Of a stretch of DNA of 64,000 bases, positions 2,734-19,446 are shown piece by piece. The DNA is from Flagellimonas sp. MMG031 (lineage in GTDB: Bacteria > Bacteroidota > Bacteroidia > Flavobacteriales > Flavobacteriaceae): positions 808,501-872,500 of the forward strand of contig NZ_CP157804.1 in the NCBI RefSeq assembly GCF_040112705.1, in the 5' to 3' direction. A program made the position numbers and the translations under genes. The notes beneath the pieces were generated by a model. It had not been told where the DNA came from. It did no database searches and saw only the letters and a list, made by a program, of their open reading frames with translations. How positions within the stretch are numbered: position 1 is the stretch's first letter; every line of letters begins with the position of its first letter.

Positions 2734-3468
2734 TTAGAGCATATCCAAAAAATCGGATTTTTTTTGCCGGGACACTGGGATTTTATGGTTGGATTCCAAG
2801 ACTACGTAGCCGTCCGTTTTTAGGAACTCCTTTATTTTATTAAGATTGATGATGTACGAATTGTGTATGCGGAAGAAACAGTTTTCGGGAAGCAGGGAAT
2901 TGACCTCCTTTAATTTTTTGGTAAGTAGGATCTTTTGGCCGTCCGTCAAAAAAATGGTACTGTAGTTACCGTCGGATTCTGCATAAAGAATATCGTCGCT
3001 ATGCAGGAAAACGAGCTTACCGTCGGTGTTGATGGTAATTTTTTTGCTCTGTGATTCTGAATTGAAGTTGAGCAATATTTTCTCCAATCGTTCTACCGTC
3101 AGGTTTTTGGCGTTGTATTTTTTGATTTTGGCCAGGGTTACTTCAAGATCATCGGAATCTATGGGTTTTAAAAGATAGTCGATGGCCTCGTTCTTCAGGG
3201 CCTGTAGCGCATATTGATTGTAAGCTGTGGTGATGACAACTGGAAAATCCTTGTTCTTTAGATTCTTGATGAACTGAAAACCGTCCATGGAGGGCATTTC
3301 GATATCGAGGAACAAACAATCGGGCGTGTTCTGTTCCAAATAGTTCAAGGCTTCGCGGGCATCTGTAAAGGATGCAATAATATCCACCTCATCGCTCAAA
3401 TTGGTCAGCTCCCAACTCAAACTCTGAAGGGCCTTGATTTCATCATCGACGATTACGGCTTCTATCAT
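2734..3468 (-). CDS. LytTR-family response regulator
   Basis: A 244-residue regulator. The receiver domain fills residues 1-120, with the acidic pair D8/D9, phospho-acceptor D55 in LFLDIEMPSMDG, T80/T81 and K101 in LLKPID. The C-terminal half is a LytTR DNA-binding domain (FLHSDDILYAESDGNYSTI and FRIHNSYIINLNKI). LytTR proteins bind pairs of direct repeats and commonly partner LytS-type kinases, which fits the kinase gene immediately downstream. Its promoter (TAAATTTG at 3488-3495) lies inside a palindrome, so autoregulation is possible. Confidence 0.95.
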   Translation of the reverse strand: MIEAVIVDDEIKALQSLSWELTNLSDEVDIIASFTDAREALNYLEQNTPDCLFLDIEMPSMDGFQFIKNLKNKDFPVVITTAYNQYALQALKNEAIDYLLKPIDSDDLEVTLAKIKKYNAKNLTVERLEKILLNFNSESQSKKITINTDGKLVFLHSDDILYAESDGNYSTIFLTDGQKILLTKKLKEVNSLLPENCFFRIHNSYIINLNKIKEFLKTDGYVVLESNHKIPVSRQKKSDFLDML

Positions 3469-4551: not shown

Positions 4552-5205
4552 TTACAAAGACCAAGCTTTTCCGCCTGTCAATGTCTGCAGATCGCCGCAA
4601 GGGATGTACTCCCCTGGTATGGGTGCATAGGCCAGTACCTCTTCACCAATATATTCCGAGGATTTATAGGCCCAAGTGGCCAAGCCCCTTAAATCGTTGG
4701 CAAAAGAGAAGCGCACAACCTCGTCATCCAGAACTCCTTCGCCGCCTTCCATAATAGCCTCCATATAGTTCATGATGGCTTCGGAGTGGGCTTCCTCTTC
4801 CTCTTTCGTCCTTTTTCTCAAGTACGTTTTTAAGGCGGGTTCTATGTCTGCTGGTTCTATGTCCGTCAATGTTTCTTTACCAGAATCGGCAAGAACCTTA
4901 TCATAGAAATTGTTCATTTGCATCATTACAAACTCCCGCTGTTCCAAAGGCATCACTTCGTCCAAATATGCGTCAATGAACACGTGTACGTTCATCTCGG
5001 TGGCAGAAGGTGTATCAGTTTTTGGCAGAATTACGTCCAGGGTCTGTGCCAAGGCGTAACCGTGTTCTTTGCTAAGGAAGCTTGGTGTCCATTCAGCAAA
5101 TGCCGGCTTGTCCTTACAGCTCTGTAAAAGCGAGAGCAGGGTTGGGGTGGCTACGGCATATCCGAAAGCCAATCCCATATTTTTGAGTGCTGATCTTCTT
5201 TCCAT
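4552..5205 (-). CDS. Gluconate 2-dehydrogenase subunit 3 family protein (dehydrogenase small subunit)
   Basis: A 217-residue exported protein. Its N-terminus has a twin arginine (ERRSALK) and a hydrophobic stretch ending in LLQSC, so it looks like a Tat substrate that becomes a lipoprotein at C30. The rest matches the gluconate 2-dehydrogenase subunit 3 family, which escorts a GMC flavoprotein subunit. The start codon overlaps the stop of the GMC gene by one base (TAATG), so both are translated together. In such pairs this subunit carries the export signal for both chains. In this context it probably serves a sugar or glycoside 3-dehydrogenase rather than gluconate oxidation. Confidence 0.88.
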   Translation of the reverse strand: MERRSALKNMGLAFGYAVATPTLLSLLQSCKDKPAFAEWTPSFLSKEHGYALAQTLDVILPKTDTPSATEMNVHVFIDAYLDEVMPLEQREFVMMQMNNFYDKVLADSGKETLTDIEPADIEPALKTYLRKRTKEEEEAHSEAIMNYMEAIMEGGEGVLDDEVVRFSFANDLRGLATWAYKSSEYIGEEVLAYAPIPGEYIPCGDLQTLTGGKAWSL

Positions 5206-6923
5206 TATATATTTCCTTTTTTAAGTTCTTGGGCGGCGTGGTTGGCTGCCCTTGCCGTAAATGCCATATAGGTCAACGATGGGTTCACGCAACTGGCAGA
5301 GGTCATAAATGCACCGTCGGTTACGTATACGTTCTCACATCCATGTACTTGGTTGTTCCCGTTTACCACAGAGGTTTTTGGGTCGCTTCCCATGCGGGCC
5401 GTTCCCATTTCGTGAATACCAAGACCAAGGGCGTAGGGCGCATCAAAAGGAGTAATATCCTTGGCACCTGCTTTCTCAAGCATCTGCACTGCTTGATCCT
5501 GCATGTCCTTACGCATGTTCAGTTCATTTTCCCGGATTTCCGCATCAAAGGTAACCGTAGGCAGTCCCCATTGATCTTTTTTATCGTAATCCAAGGTCAT
5601 CTTGTTTTCGTGGTAAGGCAGTACCTCGCCAAAAGCGTTGATACTAAAGTTCCAACCTCCTGGGGTCAGCATGGCATCTTTATACTCTTTTCCAAAGGAC
5701 GCTTCGGCGACCAATTCTTCGTAATTGCCCCTGCTTGCACCTCCTTGGTAACCGTAACCACGCTTAAAGAAGCTTACATCGGAGTCACCGCCCAAGTTTC
5801 TAAATCTCGGAATGTAGACACCGTTGGGCTTTCTGCCTTTGTAATATTTGTCCTCGAATCCATCAAACTTACCGGAAGCACCTACTTGGAAGTGGTGGTC
5901 CATCAAGTTATGGCCAAGCTCACCGGAATCGTTGCCCAATCCATTGGGGAATCGGTCCGATCTGGATTGCATCAAAATGGAAGTGGATGCAACCGCAGAA
6001 GCACAAAGGAATATCACTTTGGCCTTGAACTCGTAGGCTTCTTTGGTTTCCCTATCGATAACTTTTACGCCCGTAGCTTTTTTGGTATTTGGGTCGTAAA
6101 TGATTTCATGAACAATGGAGTCCGGCCTTAGGGTAAGGTTGCCTGTGCGCTCCGCAACCGGAAGCGTTGAGGAAACACTGCTAAAGTATGCTCCGAATGG
6201 ACATCCTCTAATACAACGGTTCCTGAATTGGCAACGTACACGGCCATCGCCCTCAAATTGTTTGTCACTATTAATGTGGGCCACCCTTCCTGCGGTAATC
6301 ACACGACCATTAAAGTGTTCAGCCACTTTGCCGCGCACCAAATCTTCCACACAGTTGAGCTCCATCATCGGCTCAAATTTACCATCGGGTAATTGTGGCA
6401 AGCCCAGATTTTCACCGGAAACTCCAATAAAACTTTCCACTTTATCGTACCAAGGGGCTATATCCTTGTAGCGCACGGGCCAATCCACGGCAATGCCTTC
6501 GTTCTTGTTGGCCGTAAAATCGATATCGCTCCAGCGGTAGCTATGGCGACCCCACATAATGGAACGCCCACCTACATGGTAGCCACGCATCCAATCGAAT
6601 CGCTTTACTTCGTTATACGGGTGGTCCAAATCGTTTACGAACCAATGTTTGGATGCAGCAGATGTGGTATACCCAGTTCTGGATTGTTTTTCCTGCTTCT
6701 TAATGTCTTCTCGGGTTGCCTGTCCTGCATGGGGAAAATCCCAAGGGTCTTTGTTGGCCGTTGGGTAATCGTCGCGGTGCTTCACCATGGGCCCACGCTC
6801 CAAGACCAAGGTCTTGAGACCGTTTTCGCACAATTCTTTGGCAGCCCAACCTCCACTGATGCCCGTTCCTACCACGATGGCATCATAGGATTCCTGCTCT
6901 TGATTGTAATAAAATTTACTCAT
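5205..6923 (-). CDS. GMC family FAD-dependent oxidoreductase, candidate glycoside 3-dehydrogenase large subunit
   Basis: A 572-residue flavoprotein. The FAD-binding Rossmann motif GTGISG is at 19-24, and the C-terminal catalytic pair is H504 (in IHEMGTARMG) and N547 (in CVNPSLTY), as in pyranose-oxidase-like GMC enzymes. A cysteine-rich segment (RCQFRNRCIRGCPFGAYFS) is typical of the bacterial membrane dehydrogenases of this type. It has no signal peptide and probably leaves through Tat bound to the small subunit encoded next. No cytochrome c gene is in the locus, so the electron acceptor is unknown. The glycoside 3-position is inferred from the DUF1080, TIM-barrel and Gfo/Idh neighbours; another sugar alcohol substrate remains possible. 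Confidence 0.9.
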   Translation of the reverse strand: MSKFYYNQEQESYDAIVVGTGISGGWAAKELCENGLKTLVLERGPMVKHRDDYPTANKDPWDFPHAGQATREDIKKQEKQSRTGYTTSAASKHWFVNDLDHPYNEVKRFDWMRGYHVGGRSIMWGRHSYRWSDIDFTANKNEGIAVDWPVRYKDIAPWYDKVESFIGVSGENLGLPQLPDGKFEPMMELNCVEDLVRGKVAEHFNGRVITAGRVAHINSDKQFEGDGRVRCQFRNRCIRGCPFGAYFSSVSSTLPVAERTGNLTLRPDSIVHEIIYDPNTKKATGVKVIDRETKEAYEFKAKVIFLCASAVASTSILMQSRSDRFPNGLGNDSGELGHNLMDHHFQVGASGKFDGFEDKYYKGRKPNGVYIPRFRNLGGDSDVSFFKRGYGYQGGASRGNYEELVAEASFGKEYKDAMLTPGGWNFSINAFGEVLPYHENKMTLDYDKKDQWGLPTVTFDAEIRENELNMRKDMQDQAVQMLEKAGAKDITPFDAPYALGLGIHEMGTARMGSDPKTSVVNGNNQVHGCENVYVTDGAFMTSASCVNPSLTYMAFTARAANHAAQELKKGNI

Positions 6924-7007
6924 TTATTCGGATTGTTTATTTGCTAAATGTATTAATTATTAAATTAATTTTCTACATTTAAACCCTATGTTTATTGAGA
7001 ATTCAGC

Positions 7008-7023
7008 ACTATAACGTTATAGT
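7008..7023. promoter_or_regulatory. Perfect 16-bp palindrome, candidate operator of the divergent sugar locus
   Basis: ACTATAACGTTATAGT is identical on both strands. It lies in the 136-bp gap between the leftward GMC operon (start 6923) and the rightward operon (start 7060). The central AACGTT core is the type bound by LacI-family repressors. No regulator gene is in the locus itself. Confidence 0.45.
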
Positions 7024-7059
7024 TTTTGGGTTCTCGAAGAAATTAACCAACGTAAAAAT

Positions 7060-8058
7060 ATGAACAAAAGTAGTTTAGCACAGAAAAGTATCGTCACGTT
7101 GATCGCAGTGGCTTTTTTGGGATTTTATTCCTGTAAACAGAATCCAAAGAAGGAAACGGCCGATGAAACCGCCACCGAAGAAGTGGCTGCCGAAGAGTCA
7201 AAACCAGATATTAAACTTTCCTTGGCCCAATGGTCCATGCACAAAATGATATTTGAGGAGGGCGTAGATCCTTACAGCTTTGCCGAGAAAGCCAGCGAGT
7301 GGGGTTTTGAAGGTCTGGAATATGTGAGCGGCCTGTACTACAAAGAACTTGAAGCGGCCGATTTTTCAGAAGAGGCCATGAACAACTGGGTAGAAAAAAG
7401 CAAGGCCGAAAGCGAAAAGTATGGATTAAAGAACTTGCTGATCATGGTCGATGGCCAAGGCGATATTGCTGTGCCGGACGAAGCAGAGAGGTCAAAGGCT
7501 GTGGAAAACCATTATAAATGGGTAGATGCCGCCGCTGCATTGGGCTGTCACTCCATACGTGTTAACCTCAATGGAAGCATGGAGCCCGAAGTATGGATGC
7601 CAGCATCCGTTGCCGGACTTACCCAATTGGCCACCTACGCCAAGGACAAAAACATCAACATCATTGTAGAAAACCACGGAGGACCATCATCCAATGCGCA
7701 ATTGTTGGCGGAAGTGATGGAAAAAGTAGGTATGGACAACTGCGGTACTTTGCCCGATTTTGGGAACTTCTGCATCAAAAGGGAAGCTGGCGACTACTAT
7801 TCGTCCAAATGTTTGGAAGAATATGACCGCTACAAAGGAACCAAAGAGCTGATGCCTTATGCCAAAGGTGTAAGCGCCAAATCTTACAGTTTCGATGAGC
7901 AAGGAAATGAAACAAGGGTAGATTACCCAAGAATTATGGAGATAGTGCTCGATTCTGGATACGAAGGTTTTGTGGGAGTTGAGTACGAAGGCTCCGAATT
8001 GAGCGAAGAGGAAGGCATTTTGGCCACCAAAAGACTCTTGGAAAGAATATTGGAGTAA
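7060..8058 (+). CDS. Lipoprotein sugar phosphate isomerase/epimerase-like TIM barrel
   Basis: A 332-residue protein with a lipoprotein signal ending in FYSC (C25), then a low-complexity Glu/Thr/Ala linker and an AP-endonuclease-2/xylose-isomerase-like TIM barrel. Candidate metal ligands lie in VENHGG, LPDFGNF and GVEYEGSE. Most relatives act on sugars in the cytoplasm; a lipoprotein version should act in the periplasm. It is the first gene of the rightward run. A role on the 3-keto sugar or its enol (isomerisation, epimerisation or hydration) is inferred from the neighbours. Confidence 0.85.
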   Translation: MNKSSLAQKSIVTLIAVAFLGFYSCKQNPKKETADETATEEVAAEESKPDIKLSLAQWSMHKMIFEEGVDPYSFAEKASEWGFEGLEYVSGLYYKELEAADFSEEAMNNWVEKSKAESEKYGLKNLLIMVDGQGDIAVPDEAERSKAVENHYKWVDAAAALGCHSIRVNLNGSMEPEVWMPASVAGLTQLATYAKDKNINIIVENHGGPSSNAQLLAEVMEKVGMDNCGTLPDFGNFCIKREAGDYYSSKCLEEYDRYKGTKELMPYAKGVSAKSYSFDEQGNETRVDYPRIMEIVLDSGYEGFVGVEYEGSELSEEEGILATKRLLERILE

Positions 8059-8081
8059 TCCGACCAAAGATGAATGGGTAG

Positions 8082-8525
8082 ATGAAGGGATTTTTTCAAC
8101 AGCTCTTCGATTACAATTATTATTGTAACAAAAAAATGATTGAACAATGCAGTGGTCCGGACAAGGTTCCGGACAACTGCATTAGACTTTTTAGTCACAT
8201 ACTCAATGCCCATCATATTTGGAACCAAAGAATTTTAGGGAATACGTCTGATTATGGGGTCTGGGACCTGCACATGTTAGAACGGTGGGAAGATATCCAT
8301 TACGATAACCAACGTACCACCTTTGAAATTCTTTCCGGTACGGATGCCTTGGAAAATCGGGTGGAATACACCAATAGTGCAGGAAAGGTATTTACCAACG
8401 AAGTGAAGGACATACTTTTTCATATCATCAATCATTCAACCCACCACCGGGGACAAATGATGAGGACCTTTCGCGATGAAGGTCTCACGCCCGAACCTTT
8501 GGATTACATTTTTTACAAAAGATAG
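8082..8525 (+). CDS. DinB family putative metal-dependent protein
   Basis: A 147-residue four-helix-bundle protein of the DinB/YfiT superfamily. Histidines at 44/45 and the H118-xx-HH (121/122) cluster are placed like the metal ligands of the family. Many relatives are thiol S-transferases or are induced by DNA damage, but most are uncharacterised. It begins 23 bp after the TIM-barrel gene and is followed within 22 bp by the permease gene, so it is co-transcribed with sugar genes. Its job there is unknown. Confidence 0.85.
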   Translation: MKGFFQQLFDYNYYCNKKMIEQCSGPDKVPDNCIRLFSHILNAHHIWNQRILGNTSDYGVWDLHMLERWEDIHYDNQRTTFEILSGTDALENRVEYTNSAGKVFTNEVKDILFHIINHSTHHRGQMMRTFRDEGLTPEPLDYIFYKR

Positions 8526-8547
8526 AAACCACTAACGCATAGTTTAC

Positions 8548-9804
8548 ATGAATAGTAAGATCAAACTCCAGCTCTCCTTTATGATGTTCCTCGAATTTTT
8601 TATCTGGGGAGGTTGGTTTGTTACCTTAGGAATATATCTGCCGAATACCTTGGGCGCCAGCGGCAGTGAAACGGCCCTTGCGTACTCTAGCCAATCGTGG
8701 GGAGCGATTATTGCCCCGTTCATTATCGGGCTTATAGCAGATAGGTACTTTAACGCAGAGCGCATTTTGGGTGTGCTCCATTTAATAGGGGCCTTCCTTA
8801 TGTACCAAATGGCATCGGCCGACGATATTTCCATATTTGTGCCTTATGTTTTTGGTTATATGATTGCCTACATGCCCACATTGGCTTTGGTCAACTCGGT
8901 TTCGTTCAACCAAATGAAGGACCCGTCCAAAGAGTTTGCCTTTATCCGTGTGTTCGGTACCATTGGTTGGATCATCGCAGGTTTGGTCTTTATCAGTTTG
9001 ATATTTCAATGGGATTCGCCTGAAAATATAGCCAACGGAGCACTTAGGAATACCTTTATCATGACAGCCATTGCGTCGGGTATTTTGGGAGTGTTCAGTT
9101 TTACCCTTCCAAAGACACCTCCAAAGGTGGACAAAGAAGAGAAAGTGTCCATTTCGGAAATATTGGGTCTCGATGCATTGAAACTTCTAAACGATAGGAA
9201 CTATTTGATTTTCTTCATAGCCTCCGTTTTGATATGTATCCCGCTTGGGTTCTACTATCAGCATGCGGGTCAATATCTAGGGGAGATCGGAGCCTCCATC
9301 AATCTGGCAGGGTCGGAAATAGGACCCGCCGGAATGATGACCATAGGGCAGATATCCGAGGTTCTCTTCATGCTGTTATTGCCCTTTTTCTTTAAAAAAT
9401 TCGGATTTAAAAAAACCATTTTGGTGGGAATGATCGCTTGGCTTGTGCGATACGTACTGTTTGCCTACGGGAACACAGGTGAGTTGGTATTTATGCTCAT
9501 TATCGGGATTGCCTTGCACGGTATCTGTTATGACTTTTTCTTTGTGTCCGGTCAAATTTATACCGATACCAAAGCAGGTGAAAAATATAAAAGTGCCGCA
9601 CAAGGATTGATTACACTGGCTACATACGGTATGGGGATGCTGATCGGATTCTGGGTGGCAGGTCAAATTGTGGATACCTATCAACTGCCCGATAATACCC
9701 ACGATTGGGTAAGCGTGTGGAGATTCCCAGCTATCTTTGCCCTTGCGGTCGGAATTCTTTTTGCCGTACTTTTTAAAAATGAAAAAGTAGAATATAAATC
9801 TTAG
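8548..9804 (+). CDS. MFS permease of the nucleoside:proton symporter (NupG-like) family
   Basis: A 418-residue protein with about twelve membrane helices and the characteristic start LSFMMFLEFFIWGGWFVTLG of NupG/XapB-like symporters. In Bacteroidota these proteins often sit in sugar loci, so the name nucleoside permease may not describe the true cargo. It is the first of two different MFS permeases in this operon. Inner-membrane uptake of the oxidised or rearranged sugar released in the periplasm is a reasonable inference. Confidence 0.85.
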   Translation: MNSKIKLQLSFMMFLEFFIWGGWFVTLGIYLPNTLGASGSETALAYSSQSWGAIIAPFIIGLIADRYFNAERILGVLHLIGAFLMYQMASADDISIFVPYVFGYMIAYMPTLALVNSVSFNQMKDPSKEFAFIRVFGTIGWIIAGLVFISLIFQWDSPENIANGALRNTFIMTAIASGILGVFSFTLPKTPPKVDKEEKVSISEILGLDALKLLNDRNYLIFFIASVLICIPLGFYYQHAGQYLGEIGASINLAGSEIGPAGMMTIGQISEVLFMLLLPFFFKKFGFKKTILVGMIAWLVRYVLFAYGNTGELVFMLIIGIALHGICYDFFFVSGQIYTDTKAGEKYKSAAQGLITLATYGMGMLIGFWVAGQIVDTYQLPDNTHDWVSVWRFPAIFALAVGILFAVLFKNEKVEYKS

Positions 9805-9831
9805 GTACAACCAAAACCAACTAACTCAAAC

Positions 9832-11070
9832 ATGAAAAATGTAAACAAGAACCAGCTTTTTATAGCGGCCTGTATTTCACTCGTCGTTACATCCATGACC
9901 TTTGCCATTCGGGCCGGTATTTTGACCCAGCTGGGGGAAGAATTTGAACTTTCTAACCAGCAATTGGGTTGGATCAACAGTATGGCCTTTTTTGGATTTC
10001 CGATTGCCATGATCTTCGGAGGTCTGCTCTATAATAAGGTTGGAGCCCGCAAACTGATGGTGGCCGCCTTTGTATGCCATTTATTGGGCTTGGTGCTCAC
10101 TATTGTGGCCGGAGGTTTCTGGACACTTATTATTTCAACCTTCTTTATTGGTTTTGCCAATGGTTCTGTGGAAGCTGCCTGTAACCCTATGATAGCTGAC
10201 ATGTACACCAAAAACCGTACGGCGATGCTCAACAAATTTCACGTTTGGTTCCCTGGAGGTATCGTGATCGGTTCCTTGATCTCCAAGTTCATGACCGATT
10301 TTGGAATGGGCTGGCAATTGCAGATCGGGGTCATGTTGATTCCTACGTTCATTTACGGTTATATGTTCTTTAAACAGCAATTCCCCGAAAGCGAACATAT
10401 CGAAACAGATACTACAAAAAATATCAAAGGTCTTGCCGATCCCTTGTTCATCTTTATCCTGATTTGTATGACCCTTACGGCCATATCCGAATTTGGGCCA
10501 CAGCAATGGGTGGAGCGTATCCTTGGAAACTCGGGGGCAAGCCCCATGTTGGTGCTTGCCATGGTAACGGGCATTATGGCCATTGGCCGATATTTTGCCG
10601 GGCCCATTGTACATCGCATCAATCCCATTGGTGTATTGCTTATGTCTGCCGTAGTGACTACCGCCGCGGTATATAGTATGAGCATTGCCGAAGGATCCAT
10701 GATATATTTGGCCGCCATTTTATTTGCTTTGGGAGTTTGTTATTTTTGGCCTACCATGATCGGGTTTACCTCCGAATATCTGCCCAAAACAGGTGCTTTG
10801 GGAATGTCGCTGGTAGGTGGAGCGGGCATGTTCGCCACCTCCATTTGGCAACCGGTGATCGGAGGATGGCTGGACACCGCAAAAAATGAGGCATTGGCCT
10901 CTGGTTTGGCCGATCAAGTGGCCGAACTTACCGCCGGAAAGGCGACCTTGGGGAAAATGATGTTTTTCCCGCTCGCTGTAGCCGTGCTGTTCTTCATTTT
11001 ATTCCTTTTACGAAAAAAGCTTGAAGAGCGAAGAGTGCCACAAGGACATGCAACGGAAGAAATTGTTTAA
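9832..11070 (+). CDS. MFS transporter, probable sugar uptake
   Basis: A 412-residue MFS_1 permease with about twelve membrane helices. It shows the loop motif GGLLYNKVGARKLM between helices 2 and 3 and a highly charged C-terminal tail. It begins 27 bp after the first permease and ends 19 bp before the Gfo/Idh/MocA gene. The sequence does not reveal the substrate. Its place between a first permease and a cytoplasmic sugar dehydrogenase suggests sugar or keto-sugar import. Confidence 0.85.
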   Translation: MKNVNKNQLFIAACISLVVTSMTFAIRAGILTQLGEEFELSNQQLGWINSMAFFGFPIAMIFGGLLYNKVGARKLMVAAFVCHLLGLVLTIVAGGFWTLIISTFFIGFANGSVEAACNPMIADMYTKNRTAMLNKFHVWFPGGIVIGSLISKFMTDFGMGWQLQIGVMLIPTFIYGYMFFKQQFPESEHIETDTTKNIKGLADPLFIFILICMTLTAISEFGPQQWVERILGNSGASPMLVLAMVTGIMAIGRYFAGPIVHRINPIGVLLMSAVVTTAAVYSMSIAEGSMIYLAAILFALGVCYFWPTMIGFTSEYLPKTGALGMSLVGGAGMFATSIWQPVIGGWLDTAKNEALASGLADQVAELTAGKATLGKMMFFPLAVAVLFFILFLLRKKLEERRVPQGHATEEIV

Positions 11071-11089
11071 TAAATATAAAGATTAGAAA

Positions 11090-12226
11090 ATGCCGAAAAA
11101 GATTAGACTAGGAATTCTTGGAGGAGGAGGGGATTCTCTTATCGGGGTGCTGCACAGGGTCGCATCCTTCATCAATGACAACTACGAAATAGTGGGAGCG
11201 GTCTTCAATCCAGATCACGAGGACAGCATCGCCTTTGCCAAGGAGATAGACATACCTACCAACCGTATCTATAAAGATTTTGATACGCTGGTCGAAGAGG
11301 AAATGAAGTTGCCGGAAGATGAGCGTATTCAGGTATGCTCCATCCTTACACCGAACTTCCTTCATTTTCCCATGGCAAAGAAGCTGTTGGACCACGGGTT
11401 TCATGTCATTTGTGAAAAACCGATGACCACCACCTACGAAGAAGCCAAAATTCTACGGGATACCCTTAAAAAGGCCGGGACCGTATTCGCGGTGACCCAT
11501 ACCTATACCGGTTATCCTATGGTGCGCCAAATGAGGGAGATGATCAAGGAAGGCGTTATCGGAAAAGTGCACAAGGTCGATGCCCAATATTATCAGGGTT
11601 GGATGAACCCCATTATCCACGACAAGGAAAAAAGAGGCAGTGTATGGAGGTTGGACCCCAAAAAAGCAGGTATCAGTTCCTGTATGGGAGACATTGGGGT
11701 ACATGCCTTTAACCTGATAGAGTTCACCACTGGATTGCAAGTGCAATCCCTTTTGTGCGACTTCAATTATGTTTATGATGACAATGTGATGGATATGGAC
11801 GGAACGGCCCTTATCCGTTTGGACAAGAATGTAAAAGGCGTCATTCGGGCGAGTCAAGTGGCCACTGGTGAAGAAAACAACCTTACTATTGCCATTTACG
11901 GTCAAAAAGGAGGCTTGAAATGGGAACAGGAAAACCCAAACTATCTGTACAGGCTGAACGACCCCGAACCATTACAGGTATATAAACCGGGACATCAATA
12001 CAACTCAGCATTGTCATTGGACGGTACTAAACTGCCACCGGGACACCCAGAAGGTATTTTTGATGCCATGGCCAATATTTATCTTGGCGTGGCAAAGGCC
12101 ATTCGTGGCGAAGAGTACAATAGTGGCGAATTCCCTACCATGACGGACGGGGTTAGAGGCCTTAATTTTATTGAGAATACTGTGGCCTCCCACAAACAAG
12201 GAAATATTTGGGTAGACATGGATTGA
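11090..12226 (+). CDS. Gfo/Idh/MocA family oxidoreductase
   Basis: A 378-residue NAD(P)-dependent dehydrogenase. The Rossmann start GILGGGGDSLIGVLHRVA is slightly longer than the usual GxGxxG. CEKPM holds the conserved catalytic lysine, and GDIGVHAFNL holds the usual Asp/His pair. It has no signal peptide, so it is cytoplasmic. In 3-keto sugar pathways such enzymes interconvert 3-keto sugars and hydroxyl sugars, so it could reduce an imported 3-keto sugar. It is the last gene of the first rightward run and is followed by a hairpin at 12274. Confidence 0.9.
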   Translation: MPKKIRLGILGGGGDSLIGVLHRVASFINDNYEIVGAVFNPDHEDSIAFAKEIDIPTNRIYKDFDTLVEEEMKLPEDERIQVCSILTPNFLHFPMAKKLLDHGFHVICEKPMTTTYEEAKILRDTLKKAGTVFAVTHTYTGYPMVRQMREMIKEGVIGKVHKVDAQYYQGWMNPIIHDKEKRGSVWRLDPKKAGISSCMGDIGVHAFNLIEFTTGLQVQSLLCDFNYVYDDNVMDMDGTALIRLDKNVKGVIRASQVATGEENNLTIAIYGQKGGLKWEQENPNYLYRLNDPEPLQVYKPGHQYNSALSLDGTKLPPGHPEGIFDAMANIYLGVAKAIRGEEYNSGEFPTMTDGVRGLNFIENTVASHKQGNIWVDMD

Positions 12227-12273
12227 TTTCCGTTTACCTGAGCAATATGGCTGTTTGAAAAAAGAGTAGTAAA

Positions 12274-12309
12274 CCTGAAAAAAGTTGAGGTTGAAGAACT
12301 TGTTTCAGG
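12274..12309. terminator. Long hairpin between convergent genes
   Basis: CCTGAAAAAAGTT (12274-12286) pairs with AACTTGTTTCAGG (12297-12309) with one mismatch around a 10-nt loop. It sits between the Gfo/Idh/MocA stop and the stop of the convergent ASCH gene. The T run after it is weak in either direction, so termination is probable rather than certain. Confidence 0.45.
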
Positions 12310-12315
12310 CAGCCA

Positions 12316-12780
12316 TTACTTTTTAAAGAGCATTTCAAACTGTTCGAAAACCACGATCATACTCTCTTTGGGAGTTTTGTCGAATTGGGCAAGCTCACGC
12401 GTAAAGTTGTCCCAATGCACCTTTTTCCAGTGTTCGAGGCTTTTATCGCCAACACCTTCCAAACGCGCGTGTTCCTCTCTTACGCTGAAGTACGGGAGCA
12501 GTTTAACTGCAGTGGTGCGAATCACGCACTTGGCCTTTCCTTCCCAATCGGTCACCACGGCAAAATCTCCGATTTTGGGGAGTGGTTTCCCTTTTAATTG
12601 TAAAACTTGTAAGGAATGGGACGTTGCTCTTTTGGTCTCTTTACAGACCAAATCGGCACATAGGTTGGCATCTTTCTCGTTGTCGCCAAAGTGAATGACT
12701 TTAGGGGCATCCTCGGAGGCAAATTCCAAATGGGCATCCAAAAAATCGCCCCACAGATTTCGGGCAGAAGCATTATCCAT
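12316..12780 (-). CDS. ASCH domain protein
   Basis: A 154-residue soluble protein with the ASCH fold, an RNA-binding-like beta barrel related to PUA. Visible family features are the start LWGDFLDAHLEF, the GDFAVVTDWEGKAKCVIRTTAVKLLPY core and the C-terminal MIVVFEQFEML. Related ASCH proteins include RNA-binding proteins and amidohydrolases such as YqfB. It lies opposite to, and interrupts, the rightward sugar genes. A link to that pathway is not supported. Confidence 0.8.
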   Translation of the reverse strand: MDNASARNLWGDFLDAHLEFASEDAPKVIHFGDNEKDANLCADLVCKETKRATSHSLQVLQLKGKPLPKIGDFAVVTDWEGKAKCVIRTTAVKLLPYFSVREEHARLEGVGDKSLEHWKKVHWDNFTRELAQFDKTPKESMIVVFEQFEMLFKK

Positions 12781-12943
12781 AAGTAGTGTTTAAAAAAAAA
12801 TGGTTAGCTGTTTTAATTGTTAACGAATTCCTATCTTTAGGTCTTAACCACATGAGACGTAAAAATAGCATAGTTTTTTTCTTAAATATAGAAGATAAAT
12901 CCCAATTTGTTTGGGGTTATCGAATCCCTTAAAATTAATTTCA

Positions 12944-13996
12944 ATGAAAACAATCAAAGGACCAGCAGTGTTCTTAGCGCAGTTCGTGGACAGTCAACCT
13001 CCGTTCAATACCTTGGACGGCATGTGTAAATGGGCCTCCGATTTAGGCTATAAAGGCATTCAGATTCCCACATGGGAATCGTTCCTCATAGATTTGGACA
13101 AGGCTGCCGAAAGTCAGGATTATTGCGATGAACTCAAAGGCAAGATCAATTCCTATGGATTGGAAATCACCGAGCTATCCACCCATTTGCAAGGGCAGTT
13201 GGTTGCCGTTCATCCAGCGTACGATATCATGTTCGATAATTTTGCTCCCAAGGAACTGCACGGAAAGCCCAAGGAACGTACCAAATGGGCCGTGGAAACC
13301 GTAAAAAAAGCAGCTACCGCCAGCCGAAGACTGGGGCTCAAGGCACACGCCACCTTTTCCGGTTCTTTGCTCTGGCACACCGCACACCCATGGCCACAGC
13401 GTCCAGCAGGCTTGGTAGAAATGGGATTTGAGGAATTGGCCAAAAGATGGATGCCCATTTTGGACCATTTTGATAAAGAAGGCGTGGATGTTTGCTACGA
13501 AATACATCCCGGCGAAGACCTTCACGATGGCGATACGTTTGAACGATTTTTGGATGCGACTGGCAATCACAAGCGCGTTAATATTTTATACGACCCAAGT
13601 CACTTTGTGTTACAACAATTGGATTATATCGCCTATATCGACCACTACCATGAGTTCATCAAATCCTTTCACGTAAAAGATTCCGAATTTAACCCAACTG
13701 GCAAGAAAGGTGCCTTTGGCGGTTACAATGATTGGGGGGATAGAGCAGGAAGGTACCGTTCTTTAGGTGATGGGCAGATTGACTTTAAGACCATTTTTTC
13801 CAAACTGACCCAATACGGATGCGATGTGTGGGCCGTAATGGAGTGGGAATGCTGTATCAAGAGTCCGGAACAAGGTGCTCGCGAAGGCGCTAAATTTATT
13901 CAAGATCATATCATAGAAGCCACAACCAAAACCTTTGATGATTTCGCGGGAGCGGACATCGATAAAGAAAAACTGAAAAACATACTGGGATTATGA
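12944..13996 (+). CDS. Cytoplasmic sugar phosphate isomerase/epimerase-like TIM barrel
   Basis: A 350-residue AP-endonuclease-2-like TIM barrel without a signal peptide. The start at 12944 (MKTIKGPAVFLAQF) is preferred because an earlier in-frame start at 12911 would add eleven poorly conserved residues. Probable metal ligands lie in CYEIHPGED, YDPSHF, FHVKDSEF and VMEWECC. The gene overlaps the first DUF1080 gene by 4 bp (ATGA), so the two are translationally coupled. A role as isomerase, epimerase or hydratase on a keto sugar is inferred. Confidence 0.88.
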   Translation: MKTIKGPAVFLAQFVDSQPPFNTLDGMCKWASDLGYKGIQIPTWESFLIDLDKAAESQDYCDELKGKINSYGLEITELSTHLQGQLVAVHPAYDIMFDNFAPKELHGKPKERTKWAVETVKKAATASRRLGLKAHATFSGSLLWHTAHPWPQRPAGLVEMGFEELAKRWMPILDHFDKEGVDVCYEIHPGEDLHDGDTFERFLDATGNHKRVNILYDPSHFVLQQLDYIAYIDHYHEFIKSFHVKDSEFNPTGKKGAFGGYNDWGDRAGRYRSLGDGQIDFKTIFSKLTQYGCDVWAVMEWECCIKSPEQGAREGAKFIQDHIIEATTKTFDDFAGADIDKEKLKNILGL

Positions 13997-14739
13997 AAAA
14001 ACCATTGCTGTTCGTAGCCCTTGCCATTGCTGTTGCATGCAAGGATAAACCAAAGGAAAACAAAGAAGAAGTACAGGAAGAAATGACCGAGACCGTTGAA
14101 GAAAAAGAGTCAGAGTGGACCACACTTTTCGATGGTGAAAGCTTTGATGGCTGGCACATGTACAACGGGGGAGCCGTAACAGAACCTTGGAAATTGGAGG
14201 ATGGCGCCATGGTGTTTTATCCACCCGAAGAAAGGCCCGAAGGCACTAGTTACAACCTCGTTAGCGACCAAGAGTTTACCGACTTTGTGCTGACCTTGGA
14301 CTGGAAGATTGCCGAAGGGGGAAACAGCGGTATTTTTTGGGCCGTAAAAGAGGACGAAAAATACGGTCAACCTTATCTCACCGGACCCGAAATACAGGTG
14401 TTGGACAACGAACGCCATCCCGATGCCCAAAATGGTGATGATCGTTTGGCGGGAGCCCTTTATGATATGGTTTCACCGTCCAAGGATGTAACAAATCCTG
14501 CTGGTGAATGGAATACCGTTGAATTGATGATCAACCACAAGACCAATGAAGGACATGTAGTACTTAACGGAACCAAAATAGTGGAATTTCCCGTGCAAGG
14601 ACCTGGGTGGGATGAATTGATTGCGAATTCAAAATTTGCCGATTGGGAAGATTTCGCCGCCTTCACTACAGGCAAGATTGGACTGCAGGACCATGGTGAT
14701 ATGGTCGCTTTTAGAAACATAAAAATTAAGGAGTTATAA
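13993..14739 (+). CDS. DUF1080 lipoprotein, candidate 3-keto-glycoside lyase or 3-keto-2-hydroxyglucal hydratase
   Basis: A 248-residue lipoprotein (lipobox ending at C16) with an acidic linker and one DUF1080 (PF06439) domain of concanavalin-like fold. The domain runs from LFDGESFDGWHMY through GNSGIFWAV, GPEIQVLDNE and GEWNTVELMI to GKIGLQDHGDMVAFRNI. This family contains 3-keto-glycoside lyases and 3-keto-2-hydroxyglucal hydratases. It is coupled by a 4-bp overlap to the TIM-barrel gene before it and by a 1-bp gap to a second DUF1080 gene after it. Whether it is the lyase or the hydratase cannot be read from sequence alone. Confidence 0.88.
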   Translation: MKKPLLFVALAIAVACKDKPKENKEEVQEEMTETVEEKESEWTTLFDGESFDGWHMYNGGAVTEPWKLEDGAMVFYPPEERPEGTSYNLVSDQEFTDFVLTLDWKIAEGGNSGIFWAVKEDEKYGQPYLTGPEIQVLDNERHPDAQNGDDRLAGALYDMVSPSKDVTNPAGEWNTVELMINHKTNEGHVVLNGTKIVEFPVQGPGWDELIANSKFADWEDFAAFTTGKIGLQDHGDMVAFRNIKIKEL

Positions 14740-14740
14740 G

Positions 14741-15496
14741 ATGATGAAAACACGAAATCTTTTAATGATATTGGCCCTATTTGTTTTCGGATGGACCACA
14801 GCGCAAGAAAAGGAACCCACCACACCAGAGGAAACCGAAATATACGAACCTGTTCCTCCCAAGGTCACCCCAGGTGAAAATGGAGCCCCTCCAAGCGATG
14901 CCATTGTACTGTTTGATGGTACCTCCTTGGATAATTGGATCAGTTCCGTAGACAGCACGGCGGCAAAATGGATATTGAATGATGATGGAAGCATGACGGT
15001 GAAGGACCGCACAGGCGATATTCAGACCAAGCAAAATTTTGGGAGCGTACAGTTGCACATCGAATGGAAATCCCCGGCCGAAGTTCAGCGTGATGGGCAA
15101 AACAGAGGTAATAGCGGGGTATTTTTGAACAACTTGTATGAAGTACAGGTGTTGGACAACAACAACAACGACACTTATGTGAACGGGCAGGTGGGATCTA
15201 TTTACAAGCAACATGTGCCCTTGGCCATGGCTTCGGTACCTTCAGGCGAGTGGAACACCTATGACATCATTTACCATGCTCCCGAATTTGAAAAGGGTCA
15301 AAAGGTAAAATCAGGAACCCTTACAGTGATTCATAACGGAGTGTTGATACAGGACCATGTGGAGATCAAGGGTACCACCCCTTACATTGGATGGCCCAAA
15401 AACCCACCGCACGGAAAAGGACCTCTGCGTTTGCAGGACCACGGAGACAACAGCAGGGTAAGCTACAGAAATATATGGGTAAGGGAGTTGGACTAG
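14741..15496 (+). CDS. DUF1080 exported protein, second candidate 3-keto-glycoside lyase/hydratase
   Basis: A 251-residue protein with an ordinary signal peptide (cleavage near WTTAQ) and a DUF1080 domain: LFDGTSLDNWI, GNSGVFLNNLYEVQVLDN, GEWNTYDIIYHAP and LRLQDHGDNSRVSYRNIWV. It differs clearly from its neighbour in the central loops, which have an extra segment around FEKGQKVKSGTL. Two divergent DUF1080 proteins side by side fit a division of labour between elimination and hydration, or between substrates. Both should be periplasmic, together with the GMC dehydrogenase. Confidence 0.88.
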   Translation: MMKTRNLLMILALFVFGWTTAQEKEPTTPEETEIYEPVPPKVTPGENGAPPSDAIVLFDGTSLDNWISSVDSTAAKWILNDDGSMTVKDRTGDIQTKQNFGSVQLHIEWKSPAEVQRDGQNRGNSGVFLNNLYEVQVLDNNNNDTYVNGQVGSIYKQHVPLAMASVPSGEWNTYDIIYHAPEFEKGQKVKSGTLTVIHNGVLIQDHVEIKGTTPYIGWPKNPPHGKGPLRLQDHGDNSRVSYRNIWVRELD

Positions 15497-17621: not shown

Positions 17622-18725
17622 TTACTGCTTACCGGTAACAACGCCTACCATACTATCGGCAGTACCGTAATACAGATACCACGTCCCGTGGAAAAGGACC
17701 AAACCCTCCAAAAAGGTCGTTCCATCTTTGTATTGCCCCGATTTTTCAAAGGGCAATTCAGGTTGAATGAAGGGTGTGTTGGTGCGATCGATCAATTTCC
17801 AAGGTTCGTTGGAATCGAAAAGGGCTTGTCCGCCAGTATACACTCGATTGCCCAATGCTTTGACCCCAATATTTTGTGAATTACCTGCATTGTAAAGCAC
17901 TACAATTCCCTTATCCGTTAGTATCGGAGGCGGTCCCGCCTCTACCAACCATGAATCGAAATAGCCCGGTCTTGGGCTTAAAACGGGCGCCAACTTGCCT
18001 TCGTAGGTTTCCACAGGTACCCAATCAATCAAATTATCGGAGCTGGCGAGCCATATATGGGGCACTCCGTAGTACATCCAGTATTTACCATTGATTTTGG
18101 CCGCTACTAATTTCCCATCCTTGATTTGGGTCACAATAGCTCCGGATTTGGTCTCGGAATCGTGATAACTTCCATCCTTATATTTTTGAAATACGGGCCC
18201 ATGTTTTTCCCAATTTACCATATCCTGTGAGGTCGCCACGGCCAGTTTCGGCACTTGCCTATTCCATTGGGTGTAGGTGAGCACGTAAAGCCCATCTTCC
18301 GTTTCCACAATTCGTGGGTCTTCTACTCCGCCGGGCCATTCATGGATCTTTTGATGATCTTGGTCAGGGTAAATAACAGGTTGGGGCCTTTTGGTAAAAT
18401 CAATTCCGTTTGTAGAAACGGCCATGCCAATGCGAGAGCGGTGACCTCCTATTTCTTTCTCCCCCAATTTTTCTTCCGCCCTATACAGCACGTATATGGA
18501 ATCTCCCTCCGCAATGGCAGCTGGATTAAACGTGGCCATGGACTCCCAATGCACGGTTTCCTGTGATATGGGATCCAGGAAAGTTGAAGAGCTATCCTTT
18601 TGTAGAATAGGTCTTGCATTTTCAGGCCGACTAAAGGGTCCTAACATCCAATCCTTCTCCTTAGTTTGGCCGAATAGACCGATACTACAAAAACCCACTA
18701 TTCCAACCAATAAAATATGTTTCAT
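17622..18725 (-). CDS. Secreted GH130-like glycoside phosphorylase/hydrolase
   Basis: A 367-residue protein starting at 18725 (MKHILLVGIVGF, signal peptide ending near LFGQ); an upstream in-frame extension to 18950 is unlikely to be translated. The five-bladed propeller motifs of family GH130 are visible: FNPAAI, WPGGVEDPRIVETEDGLYVL, the EAGPPPIL segment and the terminal WYLYYGTADS. GH130 members are mannoside phosphorylases or mannosidases. A secreted form has little phosphate to use and may be a hydrolase. It begins 4 bp after the DUF6503 gene, so they share a transcript. Confidence 0.8.
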   Translation of the reverse strand: MKHILLVGIVGFCSIGLFGQTKEKDWMLGPFSRPENARPILQKDSSSTFLDPISQETVHWESMATFNPAAIAEGDSIYVLYRAEEKLGEKEIGGHRSRIGMAVSTNGIDFTKRPQPVIYPDQDHQKIHEWPGGVEDPRIVETEDGLYVLTYTQWNRQVPKLAVATSQDMVNWEKHGPVFQKYKDGSYHDSETKSGAIVTQIKDGKLVAAKINGKYWMYYGVPHIWLASSDNLIDWVPVETYEGKLAPVLSPRPGYFDSWLVEAGPPPILTDKGIVVLYNAGNSQNIGVKALGNRVYTGGQALFDSNEPWKLIDRTNTPFIQPELPFEKSGQYKDGTTFLEGLVLFHGTWYLYYGTADSMVGVVTGKQ

Positions 18726-18729
18726 GCGC

Positions 18730-19446
18730 TTATAATTTGAATAGCGTATCAGTCCCCAAGTACTTTTCCTCTTTATTCGTGTACCAAGCTCTTGTTTTGG
18801 GCATTTTGATGCCTTCGATTTCTTCCAAACCATCCAATAGGATGTATTCCCCATCGTTTTTGGACTCCTCATGGTAAAACTGATATACTTCCATAGCGTA
18901 GGAGGCGGGGTCAAAATAAAAGTACCAAGTATCCTTTCCAACTTCGGCATCGTAGGTCGCTTTTACAACAAGATATTCCTTGCCCTTAAAAGTCTTCTTT
19001 TGAACCTTAGGGTCCAAATGAGTGCCCGGGTCGTTCAATTTCATGGGCAAACCGTACAGATATGTGTAGTAGTCTTTCATAAAATTGCCACGTTCGCAGG
19101 TCAATCTCATTTTTTCTTTGTCCTCTTCCGAAAAATCTTCGCTATCGTTTAAGGTGATGACGCATGAGTTGGGGGTAATGTTGAAAAAAGAGGTGTTTTC
19201 GCCTTGCTCCACGGTTAACATAAAAAGCTGTTTTGGAAAATCGACCTGAATGGTGCTGGTTCGTTTTGGGCGGTTTGGAGTTTCCATAACCACTTTAAAG
19301 GATGTTTTTAATTGGTCCCATTTCCCATTTGGGTCGTGAAAGGCTATGGCCTTTTCCAGAACCTGTTCCGCAGATATGGATTGGGAATGTCCAGAGACAA
19401 ATGATAACAGGCCAAGGCAAGCCCATATAAAACCGTATTTTTTCAT
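18730..19446 (-). CDS. DUF6503 family exported protein (LolA-like fold)
   Basis: A 238-residue protein with a signal peptide ending near SGHSQS. The body (VLEKAIAFHDPNGKWDQLKTSF at the start, WYFYFDPASYAMEVYQFYH in the middle) matches DUF6503, a Bacteroidota family with a lipoprotein-carrier-like fold. The start is taken at ATG 19446 rather than the GTG just before it. It lies 32 bp after the phosphate transporter gene and 4 bp before the GH130 gene. The function is unknown. Confidence 0.75.
   Translation of the reverse strand: MKKYGFIWACLGLLSFVSGHSQSISAEQVLEKAIAFHDPNGKWDQLKTSFKVVMETPNRPKRTSTIQVDFPKQLFMLTVEQGENTSFFNITPNSCVITLNDSEDFSEEDKEKMRLTCERGNFMKDYYTYLYGLPMKLNDPGTHLDPKVQKKTFKGKEYLVVKATYDAEVGKDTWYFYFDPASYAMEVYQFYHEESKNDGEYILLDGLEEIEGIKMPKTRAWYTNKEEKYLGTDTLFKL

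Follow-up and report, generated by a model that had tools for sequence, protein, structure and literature searches.

The locus studied here occupies positions 4552-15496 of a 64,000-nucleotide stretch of the Flagellimonas sp. MMG031 genome (the window, at its full length) and is a candidate for the breakdown of glycosides through 3-keto intermediates. Eleven predicted proteins lie inside these coordinates, and their families were assigned by Pfam and NCBIfam profiles. The genes named in an initial annotation were all confirmed by Pfam, through the profile search that it had proposed (PF13618, GMC, two PF06439 proteins and two PF01261 TIM barrels among them); they stand where they had been placed, and the list had left out the DinB-family gene at 8082-8525 (+) and the ASCH-domain gene at 12316-12780 (-). 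The SUB3-GMC pair on the minus strand diverges from the plus-strand run TIM1-DinB-MFSa-MFSb-GFO, after which come ASCH on the minus strand and HYD-DUFa-DUFb on the plus strand, as follows.

4552..5205, minus strand: SUB3, gluconate-2-dehydrogenase subunit 3 family, twin-arginine translocation (Tat) signal plus lipobox (PF13618, 1.3e-21)
5205..6923, minus strand: GMC, flavin adenine dinucleotide (FAD) dehydrogenase (PF05199/PF00732; C and N domains, 2.7e-23 and 8.2e-15)
6924..7059: divergent promoter region with an exact motif copy, CCCTATGTTTA, at 6984
7060..8058, plus strand: TIM1, exported lipoprotein TIM barrel, candidate 3-keto-glycoside eliminase (PF01261)
8082..8525, plus strand: DinB-family protein (PF05163, 3.3e-14)
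8548..9804, plus strand: MFSa permease, nucleoside:H+ symporter family (PF03825, 4.7e-115)
9832..11070, plus strand: MFSb permease, optional (PF07690, 1.1e-32)
11090..12226, plus strand: GFO, cytoplasmic Gfo/Idh/MocA protein, proposed 3-keto-glucose reductase (PF01408/PF22725)
12316..12780, minus strand: ASCH-domain protein, probably a bystander (PF04266, 8.9e-19)
12781..12943: promoter region of HYD, holding two near-copies of the motif that are inverted, TCCTATCTTTA and (inverted) TAAATATAGAA; both differ from YCCTATRTTTA at one position
12944..13996, plus strand: HYD, cytoplasmic 2-hydroxy-3-keto-glucal hydratase homolog, probably an ortholog (PF01261; PDB 8ro4)
13993..14739, plus strand: DUFa, DUF1080 lipoprotein, candidate lyase/hydratase (PF06439, 7.8e-51)
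14741..15496, plus strand: DUFb, exported DUF1080 protein of a separate subfamily, nearest to 4qhz (PF06439, 4.7e-39)

Intergenic gaps in the plus-strand runs measure 1-27 nucleotides, HYD and DUFa overlap by 4 nucleotides, and the stop of GMC overlaps the start of SUB3. This spacing suggests three transcription units, GMC-SUB3 (-), TIM1-DinB-MFSa-MFSb-GFO (+) and, beyond ASCH (-), HYD-DUFa-DUFb (+), instead of the two divergent ones first described. The earlier statement that neither a SusCD pair nor a classical glycosidase is present is correct for the 11 proteins encoded within the coordinates; a GH130 gene (PF04041, 1.4e-42) is found just outside them at 17622-18950 (-), past yicC-gmk-nadD.

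HYD, the second TIM barrel, matches over its full length (residues 1-350) the structure 8ro4, called 2-hydroxy-3-keto-glucal hydratase by its depositors, with an E-value of 2.3e-163 and 546.8 bits, the second-best solved structure being 2zds (E 5.6e-45). We take 8ro4 to be AtHYD, the Agrobacterium tumefaciens enzyme. Translation starts at the ATG at 12944, which aligns to 8ro4 from residue 1, and not at the TTG of a longer open reading frame. The sequences YDPSH, HVKD and EWEC are kept in all of 130 HYD relatives and E.HPGED in 123, and none of the 130 carries a twin arginine or a lipobox; a hydrophobic-run test for export was uninformative because it was positive for most GFO and GMC proteins too. 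On these grounds HYD is probably a 2-hydroxy-3-keto-glucal hydratase ortholog. Given the full-length match to a solved hydratase and the lack of an export signal, the dedicated hydration step would therefore be cytoplasmic, beside the Gfo reductase. In the Agrobacterium operon there are two TIM barrels annotated as sugar phosphate isomerases/epimerases: OGE catalyzes elimination and HYD, according to preliminary evidence, hydration (PMC10628242). The Bacillus smithii hydratase LgdB2 was believed to have weak elimination activity as well (PMC7676230).

Oxidation would take place on the periplasmic side of the membrane. The nearest PDB structure to GMC is the large subunit of fructose dehydrogenase (3.8e-41). 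GMC carries at residue 231 a cysteine cluster, CQFRNRCIRGC, presumably the mark of an Fe-S electron relay; among 113 relatives the Cys motif is present in 113, NPS/NPT in 112 and H..GT.RMG in 95. No export signal of its own was recognised on GMC, and SUB3 would be its export carrier: a twin arginine occurs in 83 of 83 SUB3 relatives and, by a simple pattern, a lipobox in 77; the Tat signal first noted is accompanied by a lipobox. Oxidation of glycosides at C3 is a candidate role for GMC, with which family and Cys motif agree, regiospecificity lying beyond the reach of sequence. Another GMC/subunit 3 pair, 32% identical in GMC to that of the locus, is encoded at contig positions 1313178-1315617.

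Conservation was followed by scanning named genomes with HYD, which gave at least 591 stretches, at least 587 of them encoding HYD relatives. From the best 80, which were kept, 61 had full 10-kb flanks; these near loci, all chosen by HYD, come from near relatives, Flavobacteriaceae such as Muricauda, Maribacter, Zobellia and Arenibacter. GFO, ASCH and yicC are present in the 61, TIM1 in 60, DUFa in 58, DinB in 56, MFSa in 54, DUFb in 52 and MFSb in 15. GMC adjoins TIM1 in 57 of the 57 loci with a stretch reaching that far, and SUB3 adjoins GMC in 53 of 53. No other protein of the neighbourhood is as conserved as HYD: its median identity is 91.7%, in loci that were themselves picked by HYD, while the other locus genes reach 57-81% and yicC 75.1%. 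TIM3, a Tat-signal TIM barrel, accompanies the set in 31 of the 61 loci, and no remnant of it was detected in the window (best E 0.14). A further GMC gene is located directly upstream of HYD in 42 of the 61, with none there in MMG031 (12781-12943).

Thirty distant loci, centred on HYD and taken from 30 different genomes among the 71 of the family that clearly encode HYD, were picked for lower HYD identity (68-86%); the count omits ten fetched stretches centred on other GMC copies or adjoining counted loci. GFO and an MFS permease occur in all 30, TIM1 in 27, GMC in 26, a DUF1080 protein in 24 and yicC in 8, while DinB and ASCH occur in none; GFO is at least 57% identical in 21, and only a form of 39-44% identity is found in 9. 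The gene linkage mostly persists as the flank changes, and the comparison of gene order suggested by the initial annotation reveals an arrangement that recurs across the family more than by chance. At more than 500 bits, 69 of 149 family genomes have both HYD and GMC (the latter not required at the HYD locus), 2 have HYD only, 8 GMC only and 70 neither.

Outside the family, a nearly full-length HYD of at least 63% identity is encoded in 65 of 345 Bacteroidota genomes (67 places); in 20 loci outside Flavobacteriaceae GFO adjoins HYD in 15 and GMC is nearby in 5. HYD was also matched at E 1e-60 or better in 310 plasmid records. Fourteen annotated regions were inspected, 6 chosen by HYD, 1 by TIM1 and 7 by GMC. 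Palleronia and Paracoccus liaowanqingii have the order HYD-Gfo-ABC-TIM-GMC-subunit 3-DUF1080, and Hymenobacter has HYD, Gfo, GMC and subunit 3, joined by a TIM barrel, a DUF1080 protein of the DUFb type and a c-type cytochrome. In these three, HYD is 57-65% and GMC 55-56% identical to the locus proteins, and the DUF1080 protein is of the DUFb type (49-54%). Pseudoalteromonas presents the row Gfo-HYD-MFS-DUF1080-GMC-subunit 3-TIM, with a permease 59% identical to MFSb. In Ketogulonicigenium, HYD and Gfo are accompanied by GMC, subunit 3 and a TIM barrel, with no DUF1080 gene in view; Catenovulum, Runella and Alteromonas have GMC with no HYD in view, and Pantoea has HYD without Gfo. These regions bear on the notion that the genes are neighbours through vertical inheritance beside yicC and do not form one pathway. 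The presence of yicC in 61 of 61 near loci agrees with it, but most of the set is kept in 22 of the 30 distant loci that lack yicC in view, and much of it reappears in other classes and phyla in other gene orders; together with the promoter motif described below, this makes the notion scarcely credible.

The division of the cleavage chemistry between TIM1, DUFa and DUFb is less clear-cut. TIM1, which had been termed an isomerase/epimerase, has the TIM-barrel fold of the catalytic subunit of C-glycoside deglycosidases (CGE), and its sequence matches are CGE subunits; that none of the listed chains bears the name AtOGE carries no weight. When the known site (metal Glu/Asp/His/Glu plus a catalytic His; residue roles from PMC10628242, their mapping onto TIM1 being ours) is projected onto it, E204, H206, D233 and E308 are kept and the aligned metal His is S272, which leaves the site incomplete. 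It shares with the C-glycoside deglycosidases DgpC, DfgA and DaCGD the fold and the Glu-x-His, Asp and Glu positions, and differs from them in Ser272 at the metal His position, in being an exported lipoprotein and in that the locus shows no small second subunit. TIM1 may be an eliminase, and DUFa and DUFb are candidates for this step as well. A twin arginine lies within the first 25 residues of 42 of 96 TIM1 relatives, and some relatives have an N-terminal twin-arginine signal plus lipobox, as would fit cytoplasmic folding with metal before export.

DUFa matches 3osd, 8rr2 and 8tda (about 4e-34 each) and DUFb matches 4qhz (1.3e-74); both keep NSG, E.Q.LD and QDHG. The Bacteroides thetaiotaomicron 3-keto-O-glycoside lyase that contains H275 is presumably a DUF1080 protein too. 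The lyase hydrates 2-hydroxy-3-keto-glucal as well, and its H275N variant is deficient in hydration (PMC13273386). The QDHG histidine of DUFa and DUFb may be the equivalent of H275, and the two proteins may be hydratases besides lyases, in which case HYD would be partly redundant. These properties, with the exported look of DUFa and DUFb, favour a scheme in which oxidation, elimination and hydration are all periplasmic through the DUF1080 pair, import and reduction concern the 3-keto sugar alone, and HYD serves for leakage or another substrate. This scheme is rather unlikely: HYD, homologous to a solved hydratase along its entire length, is encoded directly before the two DUF1080 genes, accompanies a strong GMC in 69 of 77 family genomes, adjoins GFO in 15 of the 20 loci of other families, and is more conserved (with the selection by HYD to be kept in mind) than yicC and the rest of the neighbourhood.

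A sequence element, YCCTATRTTTA, is common to the GMC/TIM1 and HYD upstream regions. In an initial shared-word test of the two promoter regions, 20 of 73 loci scored against 8 of 73 for shuffled sequence. Over the 73 loci (1,537 kb) there are 78 exact copies: the GMC/TIM1 region holds 18, the region ahead of HYD 52, and 8 lie elsewhere, 5 of the latter sitting 212-331 bases upstream of HYD, outside the 200-nucleotide limit. With one mismatch the core CCCTATRTTTA is found in 28 of 73 GMC/TIM1 and 50 of 73 HYD regions (0.8 and 0.9 in shuffles). The counts in these regions are partly circular because the motif was chosen on them, and its occurrence elsewhere is therefore the better test: YCCTATRTTTA is present in 3 of 730 AT-rich windows elsewhere, and in 83 yicC upstream regions the core is found exactly in none and with one mismatch in 3. 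Distant loci with HYD directly after GFO often lack the motif. At the level of sequence, the common motif supports co-regulation of the two promoter regions, on which the initial annotation had made its reading depend; the motif could instead be a promoter element and not a regulator site. One may go further and picture TIM1 as founding a subfamily of 3-keto-glycoside eliminases that are exported and lipid-anchored and hold their metal through three ligands (His to Ser), acting with the DUF1080 proteins under one dedicated YCCTATRTTTA-binding regulator, so that a reactive enone would arise in the periplasm and be hydrated after import; this extension is tentative and its odds are below even.

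Taken together, the locus likely encodes a split 3-keto-glycoside pathway, with oxidation and cleavage on the periplasmic side of the inner membrane and hydration and reduction in the cytoplasm. Support for the predicted oxidation-elimination-hydration-reduction chemistry is good, and the export signals fit the original proposal that oxidation and cleavage are periplasmic. The part of that proposal that places hydration mainly in the periplasm is unsupported because the hydratase homolog has no export signal in 130 relatives and sits with the cytoplasmic reductase. In the split pathway, GMC, taken out by the Tat lipoprotein SUB3, would oxidise C3 of the glycoside in the periplasm and pass its electrons to a cytochrome c whose gene lies elsewhere. 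The aglycone or the neighbouring sugar would next be eliminated by DUFa/DUFb, possibly also by TIM1, yielding 2-hydroxy-3-keto-glucal (or a 3-keto sugar). The elimination product would be imported through MFSa/MFSb and hydrated by HYD in the cytoplasm; GFO would reduce the resulting 3-keto-glucose to a hexose. We infer every reaction and transport step in this organism, as well as how TIM1, DUFa and DUFb share the cleavage and what the substrate is; 'glycan' is a tentative label for it.

Besides the possible redundancy of HYD, several observations weigh against the split pathway. The role of HYD in Agrobacterium rested, as of 2023, on preliminary evidence only (PMC10628242), and in Pedobacter none of 10 DUF1080 genes had a lactose phenotype, for which the authors propose redundancy (PMC9007349). 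The cytochrome partner is missing from view: a mono-heme c protein takes electrons from the glucoside 3-dehydrogenase of Rhizobium radiobacter (PMC9915066); in MMG031 a C..CH motif is absent from the window's non-overlapping open reading frames of at least 80 residues, the cluster has no LacB-like cytochrome c gene, and the sole match of the Hymenobacter cytochrome in the MMG031 genome is 39%, inside a 1158-residue frame at 2.94 Mb. The orthologous loci are non-independent counts. The core CCCTATRTTTA is exact in just 18 of 73 GMC/TIM1 and 25 of 73 HYD regions, so that more than half lack a copy in either taken singly, and the genome as a whole shows no enrichment (9 exact matches, 15 for the reversed control). 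The motif is therefore no general promoter box and marks no large regulon; no sensible regulon was seen among the genes at its other exact sites in the genome.

To these are added the discordant clusters. The Pseudoalteromonas GMC is just 31% identical; HYD-Gfo has no GMC in view in Phyllobacterium, Pseudosulfitobacter, Paracoccus seriniphilus and Rhizobium daejeonense, some with ABC importers; and the TIM1-type barrel is in none of the inspected non-flavobacterial clusters, TIM3-type barrels or none being matched instead, with a Pontibacter TIM1 relative standing alone. From the inspected clusters, HYD-Gfo is therefore the most constant part, the upstream module is variable and TIM1 is part of the flavobacterial version of the set. 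Rhizobium daejeonense has HYD-Gfo beside iolG, iolD and iolE, which invites a non-glycan substrate such as inositol or an aryl glycoside, with GMC as a cyclitol oxidiser and TIM1/HYD as inosose dehydratase or epimerase. HYD does match the IolE model TIGR04379 (2.3e-16, below cut-off), GFO matches inositol dehydrogenases, and MFSa belongs to the nucleoside-symporter family. HYD, however, scores 546.8 bits with 8ro4 against 42.6 with the IolE structure 3cny, and two DUF1080 proteins, linked to 3-keto-glycosides (PMC9007349), would be left unexplained, which renders such a substrate improbable.

The preferred split pathway has relatives among known systems. LacA of Caulobacter crescentus is presumably a GMC protein. 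On lactose, lacABC, one DUF1080 gene, a transporter, two epimerases and a reductase are important in Caulobacter, and a second DUF1080 gene is so on raffinose (PMC9007349). GMC with subunit 3 close to DUF1080, two DUF1080 proteins, a transporter, two epimerases and a sugar reductase are common to both, periplasmic 3-keto cleavage was proposed there as well, and the likeness is one of gene content, not of protein-level comparison; MMG031 lacks a lacB-like cytochrome in the locus and has DinB. The A. tumefaciens operon comprises GlycDH, OGE, HYD and Gfo (PMC10628242). Here too a flavin dehydrogenase, a TIM eliminase (a candidate in MMG031), a TIM hydratase and a Gfo reductase form one cluster, but SUB3, TIM1 and the two DUF1080 proteins of MMG031 have export signals and two MFS permeases are present. 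The kind of pathway, including its occurrence in Bacteroidota, is already in print (PMC9007349; for Agrobacterium, PMC10628242); the layout, the unusual exported enzyme and the shared control sequence are new. The analysis places a recent alternative to glycoside hydrolases in about half of the sampled family (HYD in 71 of 149 genomes) and proposes a compartment and a candidate protein for each step, and the promoter motif offers a handle for tracing the regulator and the inducing substrate.

Some neighbouring genes remain to be mentioned. DinB, between TIM1 and MFSa, is clade-specific: 56 of 61 near loci have it, and its absence from all 30 distant loci led to its rejection as a core enzyme; a general DinB-DUF1080 association appeared no better than chance by eye, uncounted, among the matches listed. 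The protein is perhaps a thiol transferase against the reactive enone. ASCH, in 61 of 61 near and 0 of 30 distant loci, is probably a bystander. Of the 17 near loci that extend far enough to include it, 1 has the LytTR response regulator encoded upstream (2734-3468), which is therefore probably not the dedicated regulator; a histidine kinase gene lies further upstream at 753-2720, a position to which none of the fetched near loci extends. A second 3-keto-type operon, located about 23 kb ahead of the window (contig positions 782525-785267), encodes a DUF1080 lipoprotein, a Tat-signal Gfo and a DinB_2 protein. In B. thetaiotaomicron, BT2157-BT2160 resembles the studied locus in its DUF1080 proteins and 3-keto chemistry (BT2157, PMC9007349) and differs in that oxidation is by Gfo/Idh-type dehydrogenases (NCBIfam names BT_2158, BT_2159). 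GFO of the studied locus scores far below the curated cut-offs for 3-dehydrogenases of that type (NF058561, 36.8 of 750 bits; NF058563, 21.4 of 650). The operon at 782.5-785.3 kb is nearer to that type, and its Gfo is near the BT_2158 glycoside 3-dehydrogenase (3.8e-89, below cut-off).

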